Positions 2,034 to 38,946 of a DNA stretch of 64,000 nt are shown piece by piece (the first letter of the stretch is position 1; each line of letters begins with the position of its first letter). The notes beneath the pieces were generated by a model. The model was not told the DNA's origin, searched no databases, and worked only from the letters and a program-made list of their open reading frames with translations. A program made the translations under genes and the position numbers. The DNA comes from Biscogniauxia marginata (taxonomy: Eukaryota; Ascomycota; Sordariomycetes; Xylariales; Xylariaceae): positions 248,001 through 312,000 of the forward strand of contig MU404069.1 in NCBI GenBank assembly GCA_022695795.1, read 5' to 3'.

Positions 2034-3638
2034 ATGGATACGTCCCTACCTGACGACTTGGACAAAAGTCCCCTTGCAATGGCGCATGAGACTGACCTAG
2101 TTCAGTACGAATATCTGACATTCTCGACTGACTTGTCAGGTCTCATGCGTGACGCTGCAGCTCAAGACAAGACGAAATCCGAAAATATATCCCACGGTCC
2201 ATCTAGGCCGCCTTTCCCTTCCTTGACACAGTATTCCGACCCTCAAAGCTGGTCCCCTCGGCGCAAGGCGTTTGTTACTTGGCTATCGTGCTTCTCAACC
2301 TTTGTCACGACATACACTCCAGGGGCTTACGCGGCTGGCCTGCCCCAATACAAAGCGGAATGGGGTATAAGCGACATAGAGGTCTACGCTGGCATCACTG
2401 TGTTTACGATACTCTTTGCCTTGGCGCCTATGTTTCTAGCTTCGTTCTCCGAGCTGATGGGTCGGCGGCCACTCTTCCTAGTCGCCGGGGTTGTCTATGT
2501 CATAAGCCAGATCGGCTCTGGCGTGACAGCATCGTTTGCAGGCCTACTCGTCACTAGAGCGCTTGCTGGAATTTCTTGCTCAGTCTTCAGCACAGTAGTG
2601 GGAGGTGTCATCAGCGATATATACAAGACTAAGGACCGCAACACTGCCATGGCAATTTTTTCTGGCGCCGCACTCTGCGGAACGGGAATCGGGCCCTTGG
2701 TGTCGGGGGTCATTACGGAGCATCTGAGCTGGCGATGGATATACTATGTTCAAACGATAAGCTGTGGCATTGTCGTGATTGCACTATTCGCCTTCTTTCC
2801 CGAGACTCGCGGGAGCGTATTACTGAGCCGAAAGGCCGAGGCGCTCAACACCTGGTGCAGTAGTATCCAAGACTCATCAACCCCCGGCCGTGTGCATTGG
2901 AAAGTCGCAGGCGACGAAGAACGCCAGTCTCTTGGTCGCATAGTCAAGACGTCGTTCCAACGTCCGATCCACCTTCTCTTCACGGAGAGCGTCGTTTTTT
3001 GGTTCTCTTTGTGGATGAGTTTTGCCTGGTCGATTTTGTACTTGACCTTTGAGGCCATTCCACTGATATTCGGGAGAGCATATGGCTTCTCCTCACAAGC
3101 GAGTGGGTTTGTCTTTGCAGCTACCGCCGTGGCGTCTGTGATCGGTACCGTGGCCGCAATCGAACAGGAAACGCTGGTCACCAGCTCTACCTCATGGTTT
3201 TCGACCCTGGTCCCTACCGGTCGGCCCGAAGCGCGTCTCACATTTGCCTGCGTCCAAAGCCTCCTTTTACCTATTGGACTGTTCTGGCTCGGCGGTACTG
3301 CAAGACCTTCGATCCCGTGGATCGTTCCTGCGCTATCGATCGGTTCTATAACCCTGGGAATCTTCAGCGTCTACCTTAGCGTTTTCAACTACCTCGCAGA
3401 TACTTACCACTCTTATGCCAGTTCGGCGATCGCTGCCCAGTCTTTCACCCGAAACGTTTTTGCCGCATTCTTGCCATTGGCCATCAAACCTATGTTGGAT
3501 TCTTCACTACAAATCGTAGGTACTGGGTCCCTTTTGGGTGCCATTGGCTTGTTGCTTAGTGCTGTTCCTTGGGTGCTCGTTTTATGGGGCCCTCAAATTC
3601 GCAAGCGAAGCCGGTTTGCTACGGTAGATGTATCCTAA
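2034..3638 (+). CDS. MFS transporter, DHA1 drug:H+ antiporter type (putative peptide exporter)
   Basis: A 534-residue, single-exon membrane carrier. The frame stays open further upstream, but the first in-frame ATG is at 2034 in a good context (ACCATGG). Residues 1-75 are a polar cytosolic tail; the SWSPRRKAF motif (72-80) leads into the first of about 12 hydrophobic segments. The loop after segment 2 carries the MFS motif A form ELMGRRPLF, and FFPETRG closes the first half, both typical of the DHA1 family that exports drugs, polyamines and secondary metabolites at the plasma membrane. The pair R-P-E-A-R-L...QS-LLPIGLFW is also characteristic. It lies about 1.9 kb from the repeat precursor and 3.5 kb from the UstYa gene, so export of the mature cyclic peptide or self-protection is the likely role. 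That role is inferred from context, not from sequence. Confidence 0.88.
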   Translation: MDTSLPDDLDKSPLAMAHETDLVQYEYLTFSTDLSGLMRDAAAQDKTKSENISHGPSRPPFPSLTQYSDPQSWSPRRKAFVTWLSCFSTFVTTYTPGAYAAGLPQYKAEWGISDIEVYAGITVFTILFALAPMFLASFSELMGRRPLFLVAGVVYVISQIGSGVTASFAGLLVTRALAGISCSVFSTVVGGVISDIYKTKDRNTAMAIFSGAALCGTGIGPLVSGVITEHLSWRWIYYVQTISCGIVVIALFAFFPETRGSVLLSRKAEALNTWCSSIQDSSTPGRVHWKVAGDEERQSLGRIVKTSFQRPIHLLFTESVVFWFSLWMSFAWSILYLTFEAIPLIFGRAYGFSSQASGFVFAATAVASVIGTVAAIEQETLVTSSTSWFSTLVPTGRPEARLTFACVQSLLLPIGLFWLGGTARPSIPWIVPALSIGSITLGIFSVYLSVFNYLADTYHSYASSAIAAQSFTRNVFAAFLPLAIKPMLDSSLQIVGTGSLLGAIGLLLSAVPWVLVLWGPQIRKRSRFATVDVS

Positions 3639-5541
3639 CTTACAAGCTGAGGCTAGGTATATGTTTATCTATTCTTGTCAATAATATCTCCCGTTGAAGG
3701 ATTATGTATCAACTGTGACGACTGGAAACAATAGAAACAACAGGATATGGCTTGTATTCACTATAGCAAAGGGGGACAAAAGAGCAATAGCCATGGGGGC
3801 ACGTAACTCACACTCATATGTATTTAGCTGTGTAAATGGCCCTAAGAACCATTCTAGATTTACTCTCCTTCCCTGCATTTAGTATTTTCGTTCATAAACT
3901 AGGAAACTATGCATTTTCTTCGATCCACCTGCGTTGCCGTGACATCAACACATTTGGTTGATGATCCCATTCTCGTAGACCATTGGCCCCCCTCTGTCTG
4001 CGGCTCTTTACATGTTTTTACCCAAATAATCTGGATCATTGTCCTATAGGTGTTGGTTTACCGATAAATGCCCACATCAGAGGAAGCATAATGTGACTAA
4101 ATCCTAGCTTTGCTCGATTTGTCAGAAAAGGGGTTAAATCAAGGGCGGAAATATTAGCTGTCGATGTGCGGGGCGTATAACGTCGCTACAAGAACACACT
4201 CCCTGAAAATATCCTACACCCACCAGAAGAGAGAGACAGCACACAACACAATACATGCGTAACCACACCAATAACTGAACTCACTAGTATATGACACCAT
4301 TCTACATTGAGTATGTATCATAGAGAGATCCCTTACAGATGCTGAATATATTCATTCATCAAACTGACAGCCAAGGAGGAACTGTCATATTGGCGGCGAG
4401 ACCGACGATCCATGACCTTGTGTCTCAACTTCCACCTGCTACAGTGGATGGATGGATGAATGAAATTGAGACCCTTGCTTAGATCTGGCCCTTCATGTTA
4501 CTAGCTCATTGGATACGAGATGAAGAAGATGGCGGTTCAAATCTCATCTCAAAGGTCTAGATTCTAGTGCAACTGGTTAGAAACCTGCACTCATGTCGTA
4601 CAGGTTTATGAAGGTGTCATGATAGTGTATAAACATGTTTTCTTCATTGGTCAGTGGTAGATGGATAAATGGGGTGCGTGACACCGTCAGCATCACCTTA
4701 GATCTGTACATCTTACCGGGCCATAATCTTTCGGAATCCGATTCGCTACACACTAGTACAAAGTATGTAGTTGCATTCTAAGACCGTCATGGACCGCAAT
4801 GACGACGTGAGCATGGCTTATGCTGTACACAACTACTAGAACTACTTACATGGGTTTTTGATAGTTCGCTGATCCTATTATAGTATGTGCTTGCGGAAGG
4901 TTCTTCTCATTGGTTGACAGAAGAGTGCGGCTCGGCGGTATCGCTATCCAATTGGTATATAAAACTACCCTGGATCATCGCCGCTAGTACAGTGGCGTTT
5001 GGTAAATGTTTAAGCACATAAAAAAAGCAGAACTTTTAACTTATTTTCTAATAACTCTCATACGTGATATAATAATCATGATATTTAATCTTTAAAATTT
5101 GATAATCAATTAATTTATTTAAACTATAAGTTATTTTATAAGTATCTGCTTTAGACTGCCGTGCAAAGCGCAGCAAAATATGTCAGTTTACATATTAAAC
5201 TTATTAATATCAACTTATAAAGAGTCTGTTACGACAAAGGCCGTGGTTAATTTAAACAGTATTGTATAAGTACTAGGCATGGTTCAGCCGTAAGAAGTTG
5301 TTCCTATATGTCTGGATATGCTTAGATTGGTCATTGCTAAAGAGAGTTGCTATCTAGAGTTTTAATGAGCGTGCGTCTGTGACAGAGTTGTTCTCGTTTT
5401 GTGCCTTGAACTAGAGACCGGCTATATCCAACCAAATGACAAGGAAACAATAGCAAGGAACCTAATGTTTAGTGTAGCTCGCCTGACTTATTTTCATTCC
5501 TCCTGTACCAAGGCAGGCATGATGCATCAGTTTAACACCGA
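3639..5541. other. Intergenic between exporter and precursor
   Basis: No convincing gene. The exporter (+) and precursor (-) converge on this stretch. It contains an AT-rich patch with inverted ends at 5027-5149, a short GGAT/GAAT repeat run near 4446-4464, and a decayed Pol III-like pair of boxes near 4502-4544 (see rejected items). Otherwise I see nothing recognisable. Confidence 0.5.
5027..5149. mobile_element. Second AT-rich patch with terminal inverted repeats (MITE-like candidate)
   Basis: The left end reads AAAGCAGAACTTTTAACTTAT and its partner at the right end, on the minus strand, AAAGCAGATACTTATAAAATA, so the outer 8 bp match exactly and the following bases match with small gaps. 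The 123-bp interior is A/T-rich and non-coding. This suggests a small RIP-degraded inverted-repeat element, separate in sequence from the one at 1495-1701. No target duplication was confirmed. Confidence 0.35.
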
Positions 5542-5919
5542 TCACTTCCCCACGGCTTCAGCACCGTCAACATAGCTCTTGACAAAATTGCTCCAGGCAG
5601 CGCCGTTCCAGTTATTTTCGTCACGCTTGACATCCTCGGCCCCGTCAACGTAGCTCTTGACGAAGTTGCTCCAGGCGGCCGCGTTCCAGTTCTCATCACG
5701 CTTGGCAGTCTCAGCTACATCAACGTAGCTCTTAACGAAGTTACTCCAAGCAGCTGCATTCCAGTTTTCCACATCGGGCTTGGCTACGGCTTCAGCCGCT
5801 ATATGAGGTTATCAGTTCATACATCGATCTTGAGAATAGGTAGAAGAAGACTTACGGATGGCAGTAGCCGAGATTGCGAGAGCCTGAAAAAGGACGGGGA
5901 GAGCAATCATGATCTGCAT
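5542..5919 (-). CDS. Kex2-processed repeat precursor peptide (dikaritin/UstA-like RiPP precursor)
   Basis: Two exons on the minus strand: 5919-5856 and 5798-5542, split by a 57-nt intron (GTAAGT donor, ATATAG acceptor), giving 106 residues. The ATG at 5919 has a CACC context. Exon 1 is a signal peptide (residues 1-21: hydrophobic LPVLFQALAISATA core). The rest is three near-identical blocks of 25-26 residues starting at residues 32, 57 and 82. Each contains W-N-(A/G)-A-A-W-S-N-F-V-K-S-Y-V-D; blocks 1 and 2 end in Lys-Arg (54-55 and 79-80), the Kex2 cleavage signal of the Golgi. Block 3 has an extra Asn and ends in Gly-Lys at the C terminus. Signal peptide + tandem cores + KR spacers is the hallmark of ustiloxin, asperipin and phomopsin-type precursors, and a UstYa gene is its divergent neighbour. 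The core sequence is not one I recognise. The mature peptide's bioactivity is unknown. Confidence 0.87.
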
Positions 5920-7121
5920 GGTGAAGGTGTTTGTGTTGAGTCTGTTGATGATAAATACAAGAGCTAATAAGTAAAATATTCCAGCAAGGTGAGGAGCTGT
6001 GACTAGATCTTCGAACAAAAATGTGAGATTCTAGAGAAATGGATGATAGAGAGTATTGCCTTTCTCTATTTATAATCACTGAGACGTGAGATTCTCTATG
6101 CATCCGCACACCGGCCCCAAGGTGCTAGTCAACTAGACTTCTTCTTGTCTCGCCGGTCCAATTCATTCTTTACAATATACCGTTGTACGGTAATCGGAAG
6201 TTCATCCGTCTATCTTCGCTTCTAGAGCATGCTTCGTACTACATACAGATCATGTAGTCATCTGGCCACCGTTAGTATATGCAGAGGTAGACTCTAGTCA
6301 TGCGTTCCGTGGAGTCTGGAACTCTGAGTTTTGAGCAACAAGGTCTTTTGCACGCCTAGATTCATCTGCGGGTTCTACTGCATATGAATTCTGGACAATG
6401 TGGCGGTCTGAAGAAACGTCCATTGGCACATCTTTGCCGCCATAAATTCTCCATCATCGGAGGTCATCCGCCTTCATCGGGCGAGAACCATCATCTCACT
6501 ATCTCAAACTTCTACGGCCGAGATCAGCGGTTAACGTGCGGGGTTGCTGCAAACAATTGTACTCTCCTGTAGGCCAGATCTTTCCTCTACTGCAATGACG
6601 ATTGGCCGTAGATACTTTGATGCCGAGTGATATGCATTGGGAATGAGTCGGCCTGCTTGTGTGATAGACTGTGATTACCCATTCTGTGGCCATCATTCCG
6701 GCTCGAGATGACAATCTAGAACCATAAACATATCCTATGGACATGCCAGGTAATTGGACGCATAAGGTGATGTTCTATCCATGACGAAGGTGCATACTCC
6801 CCCCCATATTAATGCCGCATACGTGTCTAAGGGGCCATGAATAAATGATATTGTATTCTCTCTACGATCAAGTTTTTAGTCTTAGACCCTTCTAGAATCA
6901 TTATCCAGGCTCAGACAAGCTCGAGCAAAGTGAAGAGTATTTCATTAACTTCACCCGAAGCCCCGGGATACTTATTCTCTCAAGCTCCTCCTTCATCAAG
7001 ATTTTTCCTTCAAGCTGTCGTTTCTTGTCCTCCCCCAATTCAAAGACTATCCTGTCTTCACGGTTATATCATGTCTCGTAGTAAATCTTTACATTCTTTC
7101 TTAGCCATTGTCTGGCAAAAG
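5920..7121. promoter_or_regulatory. Shared divergent promoter region of precursor and UstYa genes
   Basis: About 1.2 kb separates the two divergently transcribed RiPP genes. It holds the precursor TATA box (6067-6074) and the C/T-rich leader of the UstYa gene (about 6950-7060). The only ORFs are short and unsupported. A head-to-head arrangement allows co-induction of substrate and enzyme; no transcription-factor site can be named with confidence. Confidence 0.5.
6067..6074 (-). promoter_or_regulatory. TATA box of the precursor gene
   Basis: On the minus strand the sequence is TATAAATA, 148 bases before the precursor ATG at 5919. A strong TATA box fits a highly expressed, inducible small secreted-peptide gene. 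Confidence 0.5.
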
Positions 7122-8153
7122 ATGGCACCAACTTCTTACCAACCTATCGAGGGTAAGGAAAGTGATTCTGGGCGAGATTCAAGCAGAGAGAGTTACAGTG
7201 AGGAAGAAGGGCTTCTTCTCAGGGAGCAGCCGCTTATAACACCGCGGCGATCGTTCTGCAACGGTAACTTACGTCTCCTCTTTGAGGCTGCCCTGCTGCT
7301 CGCCTCGCTTATGGCTCTTGCTGTAACATTATATTACCGACCGTCGTTGTATAAACGACAGCAGGAATGCGGCAGATTGCTTGGACAATGGTGTATGTTC
7401 ATCTTTTTCATTTTTCGAGCACACATCGAGCACTATGCCAGCCCAACCTCACTCGAATGCTGACAGAATAAGTGCCGGATGCCGAGCAAGGTGTAGAGTA
7501 CGAAGTACAGCGCTTCAGGGGTAGCTTTGGCCTCAAGACCCCCTATACTGGCATTGGACCCGAGGTTGATGCGGCCTGGGATAACATAACCGATGGTACA
7601 GTCAGCCCCCTCACTTTCAGCCTCATCTAAGACGGTCTGGTAATAATGACAATCAGGTCCCGTAGGTGGCGCCATCGGTATAACTAAGGAGCAGTGGGAA
7701 GCTGTCAATGAGTATCACGAATATCCTGTCCTCCTAGACAAGGACCACGGTACCGGACAGTATCTCGCGAGCTTAGACGTGTTCCATCAACTCCACTGTG
7801 TGGATCTACTGCGCAAGTCGCTTCATCGAGAGTATTACGACAAGCACGAAGGCTCGTTCGCCGGTGCTCCCGAGTCGATCGTACAGGGACACCTGGAACA
7901 TTGCGTGGAGACCTTGCGGCAGACACTCATGTGTCACAGCGATATCAGCTTACTGACGTATAACTGGGTTGAGGGCCGCTCTATGCCGCATCCGAACTTC
8001 AATACCGTCCACACATGCAAGAAATGGGACACTCTCATTGAGTGGAACATGAAACGGGATGTAACGGTTGAGTGGGTGGACGGCGTTGGCAAGAAGATGC
8101 TGAGTCCACCTATAAAACCTAAGAACGTCAAGGGAATGGCAACCCCCCCGTGA
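7122..8153 (+). CDS. UstYa/DUF3328 family peptide-cyclising oxidase
   Basis: Three exons: 7122-7392, 7473-7595 and 7657-8153 (introns of 80 and 61 nt; the first acceptor is AATAAG, preceded by a CTGAC branch site), giving 296 residues. The product has a polar N-terminus, one membrane anchor (about residues 57-80, LLFEAALLLASLMALAVTLYY), then a lumenal domain. It shows the family's two signatures: HQLHC at 175-179 and HLEHC at 210-214, the latter followed by the usual LRQTLMCHSD. A VEYE start of the domain and a W-x-E segment after it are also typical. UstYa proteins catalyse oxidative side-chain cyclisation or chlorination/hydroxylation in fungal RiPP and related pathways, probably using the HxxHC residues as a metal site. 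An in-frame ATG at 7071 would add 17 residues; 7122 was preferred because MAPTSYQPIEG resembles usual family starts. The neighbouring precursor is the likely substrate. Confidence 0.92.
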
Positions 8154-9285: not shown

Positions 9286-10098
9286 ATGCTCTCGCTAGCC
9301 CTCGCCGCCCCTGTCGACGCCCCCCGCATCGCCGAGATCCACATGGCGGCCTTCGGCGCCAACGCGATGCTCCGGGCGCAGTTCCCCGCGGCGCCGGTCC
9401 GGGCCGCGCTGCGGCGCAGCGTCGAGGTCAAGGCGCGCGCGGACATGGCGGACCCGCGGACGACGGTCCTCGTCGTGCGGGAGGATTGCAGCGGCAGTAG
9501 TAGTGATAGCCATGCCCGGGGAGCCGAAGGAGGAGGAGGAGGAGGAGAAAAAGGAGTTGTCGTAGCTTTCGCAAAGTGGGCGCACCCCGTACCGTCCGCG
9601 GACGAGGACTACGCCGAACCGCCGTGGATATGGCCCGAGGGCACGGATCGCGGGATCCTGGACGCGTGGGCGGGGAAGGCCGAGGAGGCCCAGCGGCGGG
9701 CGGTGGGGTCGAGGCCTTGTTATCGTGAGTTGTCCCCCCTCCTCCCCTTTTTTTTTTCGTCCATATTCCCCCGTCTTACACCTGAAATATCACCGAATTG
9801 GGGGGAGCAGAGCAAGCGACTGACTGATAAACATGTCCCAGGTCTCACGTTCATGGGCACGGATCCGGCGCACGAGAGGCGCGGCGCGGCGACCATGATG
9901 GCGCGGTGGGGCATCGAGCAGTGCAAGAAGGATCGCGTCCCGGCGTACCTGGAGAGCACGCTCGAGGCGGCCCCGTTCTATGCGAAAAACGGCTTCACTT
10001 CTGTTGAGAAATTCTCCCTAGAGTACCGGCGTGCGGGTTCGAGTGGTGAGCCGGAGACATATGAGGAGATTAGTTTTGTATACGATCCCCTGTTGTAG
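9286..10098 (+). CDS. GNAT family N-acetyltransferase
   Basis: Two exons, 9286-9724 and 9842-10098, with a 117-nt intron (GTGAGT donor, CCCAG acceptor), give 231 residues. The acetyl-CoA binding motif A is seen right after the junction: F-M-G-T-D-P-A-H-E-R-R-G-A-A (about 149-162), followed by an amphipathic helix and the late Y-x-K-N-G-F motif (AAPFYAKNGF), both typical of fungal GNATs resembling puromycin N-acetyltransferase-type proteins. A Gly/Ser-rich loop at about 65-88 is encoded by a GAG/GGA microsatellite (9527-9546). The intron is a multiple of three with no stop, so retention would give a 270-residue form with a 39-residue insert just before the CoA motif. Exon 1 is markedly GC-rich. 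The acceptor substrate is unknown. Confidence 0.85.
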   Translation: MLSLALAAPVDAPRIAEIHMAAFGANAMLRAQFPAAPVRAALRRSVEVKARADMADPRTTVLVVREDCSGSSSDSHARGAEGGGGGGEKGVVVAFAKWAHPVPSADEDYAEPPWIWPEGTDRGILDAWAGKAEEAQRRAVGSRPCYRELSPLLPFFFSSIFPRLTPEISPNWGEQSKRLTDKHVPGLTFMGTDPAHERRGAATMMARWGIEQCKKDRVPAYLESTLEAAPFYAKNGFTSVEKFSLEYRRAGSSGEPETYEEISFVYDPLL

Positions 10099-22211: not shown

Positions 22212-22955
22212 TTACTCTCTTCTGGACTTCGTCGCCCCGATCAATAAGAATGTTGGTCTAATGATCTCATCCGCCCATTCTGGAAATATTTCCAGGTCCT
22301 CTTCATCGGGACGCCACTCAACAAAATTTGTCACTTCAAGACCAGCCTTGAGTAACATAGTGATATACGTTGCGACTGTCCGGTGCTGCTTCTTCACTCC
22401 TTTCATGAACCAATTTGTCGTTCTTAACCCTTCTTTCTGGTAGCCATCAATCGGCCAGAACTTGCGGCCGTCCTCCTCGCTGACTAAGAAACCCGGCTTC
22501 GATGGCGCTGTGAATATGGGATGTTCGATCGAGTACACAAGGCGTCCTGAGGGCTTCAGGCTCTCCGCAATCTCTTGAACCAATTCGGGCAGGTTGACGA
22601 GGTAATGCAAAGTCAGAGAGCTGAAGACGGCATCGTACTGGCTCTCGGGTAACTTGAGCCTGTCAAGGTCTGCCTTTTGAAACTCGATATTATCATCCTT
22701 CGTCATGCTTCGGGCCTTCTCGAGCATGTTTTCGGATAAGTCAATCGCCCGCACGAACGTCGCTCCTTGTTCCCTTGCGTATCGAGAGAACCAACCAAAT
22801 CCACATCCCAGGTCAAGGACGCTCTGGCCTTTTAGATCCGGGAGCATGGCTCTAAGTTGAGGCCATTCGGGAGCACCATCAAGCCCCCTTGTCTGTCGAT
22901 CTAGCTGGATGTAGCCCTGAAAGAACTCAGGTTGGTCGTAAACATTTTGCGACAT
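22212..22955 (-). CDS. Class I SAM-dependent methyltransferase (Methyltransf_11 type)
   Basis: A single exon of 247 residues from an ATG at 22955. Motif I, VLDLGCGFGWFSRYA (46-60), binds S-adenosylmethionine; the acidic end of strand 2 is the AIDLSENML segment; motif IV is ADLDRLKLPESQYDAVFSSLTLHYL, followed by LKPSGRLVYSIEHP. This is the full set for a class I small-molecule methyltransferase, and the length is normal. A WRPDEEDL segment near the C-terminus is a frequent ending in UbiE/YcgJ-like proteins. The substrate cannot be named. It is not in an obvious cluster. Confidence 0.88.
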   Translation of the reverse strand: MSQNVYDQPEFFQGYIQLDRQTRGLDGAPEWPQLRAMLPDLKGQSVLDLGCGFGWFSRYAREQGATFVRAIDLSENMLEKARSMTKDDNIEFQKADLDRLKLPESQYDAVFSSLTLHYLVNLPELVQEIAESLKPSGRLVYSIEHPIFTAPSKPGFLVSEEDGRKFWPIDGYQKEGLRTTNWFMKGVKKQHRTVATYITMLLKAGLEVTNFVEWRPDEEDLEIFPEWADEIIRPTFLLIGATKSRRE

Positions 22956-24694
22956 GTCTGCCGGGGACTGGTTTCAGCTCGATGAGGCACAGTAACAAAG
23001 CCAACGTAGATATTTTGTGCCTAGGAAATCTTAGGAATTTCTGTGCACCTGTTTAAGACTTCATGTCCACGGCTGGCTGAGCCATTTATATAGGGCAATT
23101 ACCTCACATATAGTATACTATATCGAGAGTGACCAGACTGTAGGTAACGTCTCGTGCGTTCCCACTAACCCGATAAATATACATAAATTGAGTCACGCCG
23201 ATAGAAAAAAGCCCTGATTGGTCAGCAGGACACTTATAAGCAATCTGCTAGTTTGCGTTGTTTTCCCCTTCTTAGATCTGCTTTCCCGCTAGGTTAGTCC
23301 ATATTACCTAGCATTAGTAACTAGGTAGGTACCTAACTAAATATCCCCTGAGACTTATAGTATATACCATCTTCACTCGCCTTTGGGAGATCGTCTTTAC
23401 GAAACAGAAAAGGATATCAAAGCCTCTACTCTAACGAGGTCATTCTTCAAGCCATAGGCTAAGAAATATCACTTTTGATTTTGTAATGTTTAAACATGTC
23501 TGAAAGATCTACTGCTACCAAGCTGTTAGGAAACATCAGTTCTATCTTGACCGTTGTGACGAAGCGGCTCCGAAATCTTTGCGTTACCTTCTCATGTGGG
23601 AATCTGAAATATTAATGGCTACTTTAGCATTGTAGACTATATTCGTGGGACTTACCAAACTTTTTGGAATATCTCACTCGCATAGTTACTATATGATGTC
23701 TTCCCGGTTTTACATCCCTTTCGTACCGTACTTAACGTGGATTCATCTACTTCGCATGCTAGAGACACATATTCCATGTGGTCAATGATGATATTAATAC
23801 GTCTATTTTGCTCTTCAAAGCAGCGCAAGACTATACGCTCTAACTAGATATGTAACTCTAAATCATTGAAAGGTCTCAAGTGGACGTATACGTATATGAA
23901 TGTGCCATTATTAGTAATTAAACATATATCTGTAATATCCACCAGAACATCAAAGGCTATCTTGGGTACAATAAATATCAATTAGCATCTCGAATTGTGT
24001 TTTACTTAGTAGATGATCCACTATTCTAAATGAAGCAATGTGAAGTGGATGATAAGCTCTATTGGTATTATAGAATATATTGTATTTGAATTGATGGCCT
24101 TACGAGTGTAGCTTTCAACCTTCGTTGCACCGTCGTAACCATTATGCGAGTTATTAAATAGTCCCGGGGAAATGCTGGTGATATGTTGTTGAGGCTTCAT
24201 TGAGTATAATGTTGCACGTGAAAGTTGACTAATGCGTATTCGAGCAAAGACGGACCTCACAGCTTCATGTAAACTCCATCGAATATTACAGATAAGGCAT
24301 TTTAGCACGCCCTTAAATCGATGGGTTAGCCCTTAAATCGACGAGTTCAACATTGGCCTGTGCTTCATGCATGAACTAATCTGCCAAGCTAATCCCAACT
24401 TAACACATAACCCCCAAAGAACAGGCGTGAATAGTGTCTATTATACTGTACGGGTACTAATATTACGTGTTGTTGCGCTGGAGAGGAAAGGTCTCTCTAG
24501 AACTACATATCAACTATCTCGTACTATGCATGGATTACATGTGTGGTAGTGCATGGGCCAACTAGCGGTCAGGTGTCCGTGACATATACTAATATACCTT
24601 ACCAACTCACTTGAATATATTTTTATATAATATGCTTCTTACCCTCCACATGTAAGAATTGTTTCATAGATACCAGACTACGTGACTTCCCACA
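22956..24694. other. Intergenic between the two methyltransferases
   Basis: AT-rich, divergent promoters of the flanking genes. No coding signal. An imperfect tandem repeat of about 20 bp, built on GCCCTTAAATCGA, lies at 24310-24350, and a TAGGTA-rich patch at 23290-23340. Confidence 0.5.
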
Positions 24695-25525
24695 ATGGCT
24701 GCTACAGACCCTTCCTTCTCGTCTGTTCGTTATCTGCCCACGGACGAAGCTTACGATAGATGGGCCGCGATCTACGACACAGACGGGAACTTCCTGCAAG
24801 CCATCGACTCCATCGAAATGAAGACCCTGTTCCCACGGTTAATAGCGTCTATTGAATCTCCCCGGCCCTGGCGGATCGTAGACCTAGGGTGCGGCACGGG
24901 CCGTAACACAGCGCTGCTGCTCAACGTCCCCGACGCGGAAATCATCGCCCTCGACGCCAGCAGGGGCATGCTAGACGTGGCAAAATCCCGTCTGTCGCCA
25001 CCACCTCCGAGCGCGAGCGCGGAAGATGATAGCGGAGGGGTCCCGACCAAGGAGGATAACAGCACGTCTCAGACAAGGACCCTCCGCTTCGAAATCTTCG
25101 ACCTGCTGTCCGCGCCCGCCTCGCCCGAGTTCGCGCAGCGCGCGGACGCGGTGATCAGCACGCTCGTCGTCGAGCACGTCCCGCTGGCGGTGTTCTTCTC
25201 CCACGTGTCGCGGCTCCTGAAGCGCGGGGGCGTGCTGCTGCTGACGAATATGCACGCGCACATGGGGAGTATTAGCCAGGCCGGGTTCGTGGACGCGGCC
25301 ACGGGGGAGAAGATCAGACCTACGAGCTATGCCCATACCGTGCAGGACGTCGTGGCTGAGGCGAGGAGATGGGGGTTGGAGGTTGAAGAGGGCCCGGGAG
25401 GTGGTGTTGAGGAGCGTACTGTTGAGGAGGGTATGGTTGAGAGGCTGGGGCCTAGGAGCGCGAAGTGGGTTGGTATTACGTGCTGGTTTGGGGGGTTGTT
25501 TAGAAAGGTCGAAGATGCATCTTGA
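24695..25525 (+). CDS. Class I SAM-dependent methyltransferase
   Basis: A single exon of 276 residues; ATG in context CACAATGG. Motif I IVDLGCGTGRNTALLL (61-76) is clear, then AEIIALDASRGMLDVAKSRL for the SAM ribose-binding acidic residue. A Ser/Pro/Asp-rich insert (about 98-125) interrupts the fold before the FEIFDLLSAP strand. LLKRGGVLLLTNMHAHMG is motif VI-like. Many fungal relatives sit in secondary-metabolite loci, but no biosynthetic partner is visible here. The C-terminal third is Gly/Glu-rich. GC content is clearly higher than the AT-rich flanks. Confidence 0.85.
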   Translation: MAATDPSFSSVRYLPTDEAYDRWAAIYDTDGNFLQAIDSIEMKTLFPRLIASIESPRPWRIVDLGCGTGRNTALLLNVPDAEIIALDASRGMLDVAKSRLSPPPPSASAEDDSGGVPTKEDNSTSQTRTLRFEIFDLLSAPASPEFAQRADAVISTLVVEHVPLAVFFSHVSRLLKRGGVLLLTNMHAHMGSISQAGFVDAATGEKIRPTSYAHTVQDVVAEARRWGLEVEEGPGGGVEERTVEEGMVERLGPRSAKWVGITCWFGGLFRKVEDAS

Positions 25526-36419: not shown

Positions 36420-37211
36420 TCAAAACCCGGTTCCCGGCTCGTCGATCCGGACCACGACCTGCTCGTCGTTGGCGGTATAAGCGAGCCAGGTGAAACGGGT
36501 CCCGGTTCGAACGACGTATTCCTGCCACGCACGGTGCTCGTGTCGCTCCCAGCCCGGGAAGTTAAAATACTCGTCAAACACCAGGATCGAGCCGGCACGC
36601 AGGCGGGGCCCACAGTGTTCCAGCACCGTCACGGCCGACGAGTACAGGTCGCTGTCGACGTGGAGCAGGGCGATGGGCCCCGGGTGCTCGGCGAGGAAGC
36701 GCGGCAGAGTCTCGTGAAACCACCCGACAACCAGTTTGGCGCCAGGCACCTCCGGTGGGGTGTTAACTGCAAAGGTGCCGGCACTAAACCCCGAGCGCCA
36801 GGTCTCAGGCAAGCCCTGAAAGGAATCGAATCCGTAGACCTCGCCAGCCCGGCCGGCCGCGATGCGTTGCAGGGTGGCGCCGCTGTACACCCCGAACTCA
36901 AGGGTCATGCCCTCTTTCGGTGCGGCGTTGAGAGCGTAGCAGAGCGTGTCGCCCTTGTCAAAGAAGGTTGTAGCGCTAGGGAAGTGCTCGCCAGCAAACC
37001 GTGCGCTCGAGAGCGTTGCGTCGTGCTCGGCAGCCTGAGAGATGTCGCGCCTGCTGCGGCGGTCGGCATCGCTATTCTTCTCGGTGATCTGGTCGAGGCG
37101 CGCGCGTAGCCACGCCTCGTGTTGCTCGAACCGGGCTTCGATGCGGACCTGGACGACCTCCTCGAACACCCTGGTCACGTGCGAACCCAGCCACAGCCAG
37201 AGCTGCATCAT
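36420..37211 (-). CDS. TylF/MycF-type class I SAM methyltransferase, bacterial-looking
   Basis: A single exon of 263 residues from ATG 37211 (a second ATG is the next codon). Key blocks: LEFGVYSGATLQ (104-115, SAM motif I), YGFDSFQGLPE (126-136), LLHVDSDLYSS (182-192) and LVFDEYFNFPGWE (210-222). These are the hallmarks of macrocin/mycinamicin O-methyltransferase-like proteins (Methyltransf_24/TylF), where the Asp/Glu residues hold a metal ion. Such proteins are common in bacteria, including many beside glycan or antibiotic genes. The gene is intronless, GC-rich and stands in AT-rich transposon-marked DNA, so transfer from a bacterium is plausible but unproven. An N-terminal helical region with many Arg/Glu (about 15-60) precedes the fold. 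Substrate unknown. Confidence 0.85.
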   Translation of the reverse strand: MMQLWLWLGSHVTRVFEEVVQVRIEARFEQHEAWLRARLDQITEKNSDADRRSRRDISQAAEHDATLSSARFAGEHFPSATTFFDKGDTLCYALNAAPKEGMTLEFGVYSGATLQRIAAGRAGEVYGFDSFQGLPETWRSGFSAGTFAVNTPPEVPGAKLVVGWFHETLPRFLAEHPGPIALLHVDSDLYSSAVTVLEHCGPRLRAGSILVFDEYFNFPGWERHEHRAWQEYVVRTGTRFTWLAYTANDEQVVVRIDEPGTGF

Positions 37212-38946
37212 GAAGGTTATATGATCTACCGTCTGTTCTCAACAGTGAAACAAACTGCGCTCTAGTCCCACGACCTGGAAAAAAGAAATATGCAGGAATT
37301 TCAGAAACTGGTTTAAAAAAATCTATGAATAATTTTTGTTGTTAAGAAAAGAGATTCCTCTACGACTTATATAGTATTTCTAACTACTCGTATATAGCCG
37401 GCTTGATCCAGGCATAGCCATAGCGAAGCTGTATCAGTATAGCCAACCTAATATGAATCATGTGCTCTTGCTCATCTATCAGTCATAGTAGTACGCCACG
37501 GAACTTCCCTGTCGCCTTTCGCATTACCGAGTAAGACGCTCACCAGGGACCTGCGAGACCTGCGGCGCAGCAAATGGGAGATGCAGTACACAACAAGGGC
37601 AAAGATATCAAAGACTTCGTGCGGAGCGCGCAGAAGAATGGACGGATATACGGAGGAAATAGCATCACGAAGAGATTCAGATCGCTATAGACGGCGGCAT
37701 CCGCCGTGATTCAGAATTCTTCAAAGCCCTAGTCCTCGGCGCCCAATACTGCTTCGTTGTTGGAATACTCATTTAGGGACTTGCTATACTTTATTACCAT
37801 TTTCAGTCGCCCGGGCCTGTTTTCCGCTGGCATTTCCAAGTATCAGAGTGAAAGGAGCGTTGATCTCACCGTTTGTGTTGGCCTACATGAATTTAAGATG
37901 ACTATGATATTAGCTGGGTAATAGAATGCGAGAGCGCGCTTCTGCCAGAGATACAAGATACTTATACAAATTACTACTTTGCGAAAGACCGAAGTTACTC
38001 CAGAGTATCTCTCCGTCCTGGGTGTGGATGTTATTCTATGTATCACATCGCATAAAGGATCCTCTCCCTGGTATTCAATAGATGGGCTAATAGGATAAAT
38101 CGGGCAGGTCACATAAGTTTCAACTAAATGAAAACAAAAGGTATGTACAGGTATCGATGATGCCATGGTATTCCGAGATAATATCATTAGGTGTTGATAA
38201 AGGATATTTATCGGGGTGTGACATGTCCTGTCTTTTCTAACCTGTCCAGATTGCTAGATCATCTCAAGCTTGTACTCACAATACATTTCTATGGCAGATA
38301 TTAAATAATCATCGTAACTCGACAGCAGAAGTGGAACTAGAATTGTTGCTAGTCACCTTGCATTATTCATGTCAGAGAGGAGGGGTTACGGCGGTAAAGC
38401 TCGTGAGAAGCGAGGATATTCGTGATAACAAGAACGTAATTACTAATGGCCAAAACGAACTAAATCTATGCAGCTCGGCTTATAGAGTAACATTAACTGC
38501 ATCTATCTTGATCGCACGCAGCTATTTTAATTTACAAGGTTCTCACAGGGCCGAATGCAGCCCCTGTCCAGGTTCACCAACATAGGTCGTTTACGCAGGG
38601 CAGGTCGGCCTCAGAATGCCGAAGGTGAAGAAGTGACCCAGACCAATCGGTTAAAATACAAAGCAGTGAGCTTGCATGTTTTTATTTGGTTCAACTATGC
38701 TAGAGAGGAAGGAAAATCTGTTTACACACATGATAGAGATCGAATGTTTTGTAATGCACTTTAGGTAGTCAACTATTCCCGTGAACACGCACTCCACCAG
38801 TTTCAGGCTGAAATATTGAGCTAGAAATTTAGATTATCCTTCACGATAAGGCGTACTGAAAGTCGTTGCTGAAGGAAGGTTATCATTCCTGTCTTGAAAT
38901 TCCGAGCGAGCGTCATGCAGAGCTGATCGATTATGGGTTTCCGACC
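37212..38946. other. Intergenic holding a gene relic
   Basis: Mostly AT-rich and non-coding. It includes a degraded fragment of an FMN-dependent hydroxyacid dehydrogenase at 37669-37791. The segment 37500-37690 is less AT-rich than the rest and may be more of the same relic, too decayed to read. Confidence 0.5.
37669..37791 (+). pseudogene. Relic of FMN-dependent alpha-hydroxyacid dehydrogenase (C-terminal part)
   Basis: Translation from 37669 gives E-E-I-Q-I-A-I-D-G-G-I-R-R, then a stretch equivalent to K-A-L-x-L-G-A at 37723-37743 and F-V-V-G, then a stop codon (37774-37776) exactly where family members have Trp before G-L-A. The DGGIRRG-x-D-x-x-KAL-x-LGA-x-x-V-x-x-GRP-x-x-WGLA segment is the FMN phosphate-binding signature of lactate oxidase, cytochrome b2 and glycolate oxidase. 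Upstream sequence is full of stops and cannot be aligned. The Trp-to-stop (TGG to TAG) change fits RIP-like G-to-A decay. Only about 40 residues survive. Confidence 0.6.

Follow-up and report, generated by a model that had tools for sequence, protein, structure and literature searches.

What does a small locus of the fungus Biscogniauxia marginata make, in which a gene for a short repeat protein lies between genes for a major facilitator superfamily (MFS) transporter and a UstYa/DUF3328 oxidase? The locus stands near the left end of a 64,000-base stretch, here called the window (bases 248001-312000 of contig C15, GenBank MU404069.1, in the 45.3 Mb, 229-contig assembly GCA_022695795.1), and positions below are those of the window unless another contig is named. 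Dikaritins are ribosomally synthesised and post-translationally modified peptides (RiPPs) that, as described in PMC10512285, derive from Kex2-processed repeat proteins (KEPs) and are cyclised by a UstYa homologue; by the count in that source only five had been reported by 2022. We consider it likely that the locus is a dikaritin-type RiPP pathway with an uncharacterised core. The initial annotation had proposed such a pathway, and its reading agrees with the published definition in the repeat precursor and the UstYa gene, and gains from the recurrent pairing of the two; cyclisation, export by the MFS protein and a new compound class are predicted parts of it. Since the same core is found beside such an oxidase in distant fungi as well, the precursor and UstYa probably yield one conserved, oxidatively modified peptide.

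The precursor, a repeat protein of the KEP type, is encoded on the minus strand (5919-5542) by an exon model of 106 aa (exon 1, 5919-5856; intron, 5855-5799; exon 2, 5798-5542), whose 57-base intron reads GTAAGT...ATAG and whose translation agrees at every residue with a separately made database model from the same species (P0001, F5X99DRAFT_374274). By eye, residues 1-20 (5860-5919, minus strand) form a putative signal peptide with A-T-A ahead of the likely cut, and its end resembles the QA[LV]A[VI]S end of P0003, P0004, P0005 and P0043. The protein carries three near-identical copies of a 14-residue core motif, WN[AG]AAWSNFVKSYV, all on the minus strand: copy 1 (WNAAAWSNFVKSYV, 5722-5763) is followed by DVAETAKR, copy 2 (WNAAAWSNFVKSYV, 5647-5688) by DGAEDVKR, and copy 3 (WNGAAWSNFVKSYV, 5569-5610) by DGAEAVGK and a stop codon, so that Lys-Arg (KR) follows the first two copies and the third ends in GK-stop. 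Tandem Repeats Finder returned a 75-base array of 2.8 copies (score 254) at this gene, and together with the exon model and the identical database protein it bears out the earlier description of a signal-peptide protein with three near-identical blocks, two of them ending in Lys-Arg, the signal peptide itself being a by-eye call. A degenerate core pattern, composed after the sequence was known, had three matches in the window, where 100 shuffles gave 0.00 on average. When the copies are compared in pairs, as 18-codon blocks, synonymous changes number 8, 9 and 11 for about 10 synonymous sites, and nonsynonymous changes 1, 1 and 2 for 44 nonsynonymous sites; since the synonymous sites are saturated and nonsynonymous changes few, the copies are old and the core peptide looks strongly constrained between them. 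The precursor is a single locus in this genome, the only other match lying on C26 with an E-value of 2.88. Its Pfam matches were weak and below the cut-off, and an NCBIfam match scored 19.3 bits where the cut-off is 500; both were dismissed as chance.

The oxidase gene lies on the plus strand (7071-8153) and encodes 313 aa in three exons (7071-7392, 7473-7595 and 7657-8153) separated by introns at 7393-7472 and 7596-7656. It had been described as a divergent DUF3328/UstYa gene with both HxxHC motifs, to be searched against UstYa profiles; the product matches PF11807 with an E-value of 1e-48, and the two motifs, which are predicted to supply copper ligands, are read from the sequence as HQLHC (7785-7799, plus strand) and HLEHC (7890-7904, plus strand). 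In alignments of 27 and 23 rows, the two histidines and the cysteine of each motif either never vary or are kept in 90% of rows or more. The database model P0009 (296 aa), which begins at the second methionine, 17 residues later, is 100% identical over its own length, and the longer start resembles that of the Xylaria intraflava homologue P0010. The first intron has an uncommon AAG acceptor, and P0009 implies the same junction, as it is identical across it. In an AlphaFold2 model of P0009 of low to moderate confidence (mean pLDDT 61.1, pTM 0.51), a long N-terminal helix (residues 45-71) looks like a membrane anchor and the HxxHC motifs fall on helices 172-187 and 204-225; the model thus gives modest evidence that the paired-helix layout and the anchor helix match the pattern of copper-dependent DUF3328 oxidases. 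The cyclochlorotine hydroxylase CctR has a like arrangement of an N-terminal anchor helix and an HxxHC(x)nHxxHC helical domain, and PMC12435403 describes it as a binuclear-copper DUF3328 dimer with a lumenal domain that needs copper, electrons and dioxygen, stating also that AprY is copper- and dioxygen-dependent. The substrate that CctR hydroxylates is a nonribosomal peptide, whereas the window enzyme pairs with a repeat precursor. No solved relative of the oxidase was found by sequence (best E-value 0.63), nor by fold, where 0/22 matches reached an E-value of 0.001 or less with the low-confidence model as query.

One-sequence and profile searches recovered a precursor family of 21 proteins, several of them fragments; the searches need shared five-residue words and are thereby biased toward conserved cores, so that diverged relatives would escape them. 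Six named species have a precursor match: B. marginata, Xylariaceae sp. FL0255, Penicillium hordei, Rasamsonia byssochlamydoides, Stipitochalara longipes and Acrodontium crateriforme. Four of the six, B. marginata included, have a UstYa match on an identically sized contig (562445, 363345, 2788198 and 1278406 bases), identity of contig size being the ground for same-contig placement in the database species, which for Stipitochalara means a putative pairing within 2.8 Mb. The locus tags of precursor and UstYa are consecutive in Rasamsonia (3164/3165) and Acrodontium (00557400/00557500). As the four paired species fall in Sordariomycetes, Eurotiomycetes, Leotiomycetes and Dothideomycetes, a conserved precursor-UstYa pair recurring across classes appears well supported at the sequence level.

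A count without a fixed anchor gave 48 core copies in the 21 proteins; at least 5 of the 14 positions matched in 51 windows, of which three were set aside as chance matches and one is a genuine though diverged copy, in P0049. Over the 48 cores, W6 and F9 occur in 48/48, N2, A5 and S7 in 47/48, W1, N8 and Y13 in 46/48 and K11 in 45/48. At position 12, S and V predominate, and position 14 holds V, A or F, so that KSYV and KVYAV subtypes can be told apart. The processing sites were counted on a set of 47 cores anchored on WS[NK]F, in which W6, S7 and F9 are invariant by construction: KR or RR stands no more than 7 residues upstream of 37 of these cores, and inside 24 of the 26 spacers that separate one core from the next. 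Two narrow degenerate core patterns had 0 exact matches in bacterial/archaeal and viral contigs. The core strings were likewise not found in the text of the papers searched, though the supplementary tables of the KEP surveys may list this type, and this core is not among the conserved motifs that PMC6339444 names in its text. The survey in PMC7329392 distinguishes 838 KEP types, most of them known from one genus, and places 22% of 7,878 precursors near DUF3328 genes; tyrosine is common but not universal there, being present in 65.6% of the repeats near such genes.

The locus thus combines a repeat precursor with a signal peptide (by eye) and KR-spaced tandem cores, a nearby UstYa/DUF3328 gene with HxxHC motifs, and a tyrosine in the repeat (Tyr13, in 46/48 cores). 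In the pathway that we envisage, the precursor would enter the secretory pathway through its signal peptide, and Kex2 would cut after Lys-Arg between core copies to release units of about 23-26 residues that centre on the core W-N-A-A-A-W-S-N-F-V-K-S-Y-V. UstYa, predicted to be held in the membrane by its anchor so that both HxxHC motifs face the lumen, would meet the precursor there and, by analogy with the published work on CctR and AprY, oxidise the core with copper and dioxygen. As the core Trp, Phe and Tyr are conserved, the likeliest outcome would be at least one side-chain crosslink through Tyr13 and/or Trp1/Trp6, and the product may then be secreted, or be exported by the MFS protein encoded nearby. 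The computed [M+H]+ of DENWNAAAWSNFVKSYVDGAEDV is 2587.1371 as a linear peptide and 2585.1215 with one crosslink; for WNAAAWSNFVKSYV the values are 1642.8012 and 1640.7856.

Several observations weigh against this reading. Ten of the 47 anchored cores lack KR/RR within 7 residues upstream, 2 of the 26 spacers (in P0003 and P0050) lack it as well, and the Acrodontium crateriforme precursor P0053 has one core and no KR/RR anywhere; hence, Kex2 cutting is not universal in the family. P0053 itself scored an E-value of 0.48 in the precursor search and was kept in the family for its plain core and for a locus tag adjoining that of UstYa. Xylariaceae sp. FL0255 and Penicillium hordei have a precursor but no UstYa among the matches listed, and many species with a close UstYa, such as those of Cryphonectria, Eutypa, Akanthomyces and Meristemomyces (70-89% identity), had no precursor listed, although short precursors in these genera may lack annotation. 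No dedicated peptidase was found near the precursor: six-frame searches, with the best candidates scored, gave 2 genome matches for the S41 peptidase and 13 for tyrosinase at an E-value of 0.001 or less, of which 0/2 and 0/13 lie on C15, so that neither of the enzymes for which a look to the left of base 1 had been suggested came to light on the contig. In favour of the reading, a proprotein-convertase P domain is present in the genome, on C50, in a search aimed at the P domain alone.

Further, the conserved core of 14 residues is longer than known dikaritin cores and known macrocyclic cores, which speaks for an alternative in which UstYa hydroxylates, desaturates or otherwise oxidises the linear Kex2-released peptide and makes no crosslink. 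The chemistry of the family points the same way, in that CctR is a hydroxylase and other DUF3328 members carry out halogenation or desaturation (as reported in PMC12435403 and PMC10512285), and with chemistry so varied the presence of a DUF3328 protein does not imply cyclisation. However, the characterised repeat-precursor/UstYa products described in PMC9233826 and PMC10512285 are cyclic, and the best-conserved positions of the core include aromatic residues, at which crosslinks usually form; we regard this alternative as unlikely.

A peptide so conserved across four classes is also what would be expected of a receptor-bound signal, and mating pheromones are placed among the KEPs in PMC7329392. 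On these grounds the repeat protein might give an unmodified pheromone- or hormone-like signalling peptide, with the UstYa gene an incidental neighbour; yet the UstYa pairing recurs and the core repeat is without Cys, unlike the alpha-pheromones known from filamentous ascomycetes, and we hold this explanation to be very improbable. A Pfam search with E-values up to 1 found no MF_alpha family, a result whose weight depends on how well such models detect filamentous-fungus pheromones. Least probable of all, to a degree that makes it hardly credible, is that the core acts as a linear amphipathic, membrane-active peptide: the helical moment of one of four tested peptides, a 20-residue extension, was reached by only 3.4% of shuffles, but that of the 14-mer was reached by 39.6%, that of the KVYAVDD form by 93.8% and that of the FIKSYVDDFEA form by 17.2%. 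An amphipathic-helix reading of the 14-residue core itself was rejected, as it showed no excess over shuffles.

Returning to the modified peptide, we would venture, as a doubtful extension of the dikaritin-type reading, that it is a hormone-like, self-acting fungal RiPP: a single oxidatively crosslinked W-x4-W-x6-Y peptide that has stayed nearly constant between Dothideomycetes and Sordariomycetes, its partner being a matching lineage of UstYa enzymes that form a crosslink involving Trp. We know of no Trp-involving crosslink from other UstYa enzymes. A 16-row UstYa tree placed 14 rows in one group (100/100) apart from two Aspergillus rows, did not group the four precursor-bearing species together and left 9 of 13 inner branches below the support mark, and a 25-row tree that includes five segments from the B. 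marginata genome itself is dominated by long branches; the trees are unable to separate descent from transfer.

Set beside known systems, the locus shares their parts and differs in its core. The asperipin-2a core and the epichloecyclin and victorin cores differ from the core described here. Ustiloxin and phomopsin are alike in having a repeat precursor with KR sites and a UstYa homologue; their clustered S41 peptidase and tyrosinase have no counterpart among the matches on C15. Their EDYxI-type core, as given in PMC6339444, is missing from the window-family cores listed, and the window contig has one UstYa match against the two or five reported for them in PMC7329392. Asperipin-2a (aprA/aprY) is alike in its repeat precursor, its single UstYa (PMC7329392) and its small gene set, four genes being held responsible for the pathway in PMC10512285. 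Epichloecyclins and victorin also come from multi-core precursors, and their products are described in PMC9233826 as cyclised through side chains.

Other UstYa loci of the genome were inspected as well. The idea of a paralogous cluster was rejected, as the best-scoring UstYa paralogue (on C27) gave no scripted find of a repeat precursor in 20 kb. A second repeat precursor with three KKR-spaced DDVVVADGF copies occurs at C8:244243-244470 (minus strand), flanked by two UstYa matches (C8:243002-243589 and 246195-246452). A third, at C39:267012-267638 (minus strand), has a signal-peptide-like start by eye and seven [SD]PQFVIDGYEET copies that are mostly KR-spaced, and lies about 3.2 kb from UstYa matches at C39:270829-271366. 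C131:65363-71577 and C4:264598-269631 hold several UstYa matches each, and no scripted repeat-precursor find was made within the stretches fetched.

The MFS transporter gene (2034-3638, plus strand, single exon) encodes a DHA1/QDR-like protein and possible exporter that matches PF07690 (E 6.9e-39) and TRI12 (5.3e-08), its best solved-structure match being Quinidine resistance protein 2 (E 3.9e-18). Among the fungi surveyed in PMC7329392 no profile is more abundant than MFS_1, so that its presence near the precursor says little; of the proposed DHA1-type exporter in the cluster, the gene itself stands, and its membership is possible, on proximity only. AT-rich islands flank it at 1440-1900 and 4980-5330 (GC 21% at 1501-1800 and 33% at 5101-5400); the former matches 12 other places in the genome over about 80-135 bases with 70-78% identity, and the latter one, over 100 bases with 78%. 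Around the locus, Pfam was run on 6 of 9 long frames in the 10 kb that precede the window and on 14 of 25 in window positions 1-37,300, plus the MFS and GNAT frames, and a second 10 kb to the left was read by eye only. To the left, a PPPDE peptidase and a GTPase were matched and the other 4 of the 6 scanned frames had no match. To the right of UstYa the scan, which reached 37.3 kb, found an ankyrin/VPS9 protein, an exonuclease, a phosphoglucomutase and a 2-hydroxyacid dehydrogenase. A GNAT acetyltransferase frame (9286-10098), 1.1 kb right of UstYa, may be either a tailoring gene or a plain neighbour, and methyltransferase frames at 22215-22973, 24686-25522 and 36423-37238 lie 14-28 kb from UstYa, too distant to assign. 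No obvious second peptide-tailoring enzyme stood nearby among the Pfam-scanned frames, the GNAT gene being a possible candidate for that role.

The logic of such a pathway is already known; what is new is the core and its spread over four classes. The four-class core and its matching UstYa lineage form a minimal enzyme-substrate pair with natural variants, among which P0053, with its single core, no Lys-Arg and a tag adjoining that of UstYa, is a naturally occurring case in which the need for Kex2 repeats could be tested. The pair would thus allow direct tests both of UstYa chemistry and of the biological role of the peptide.

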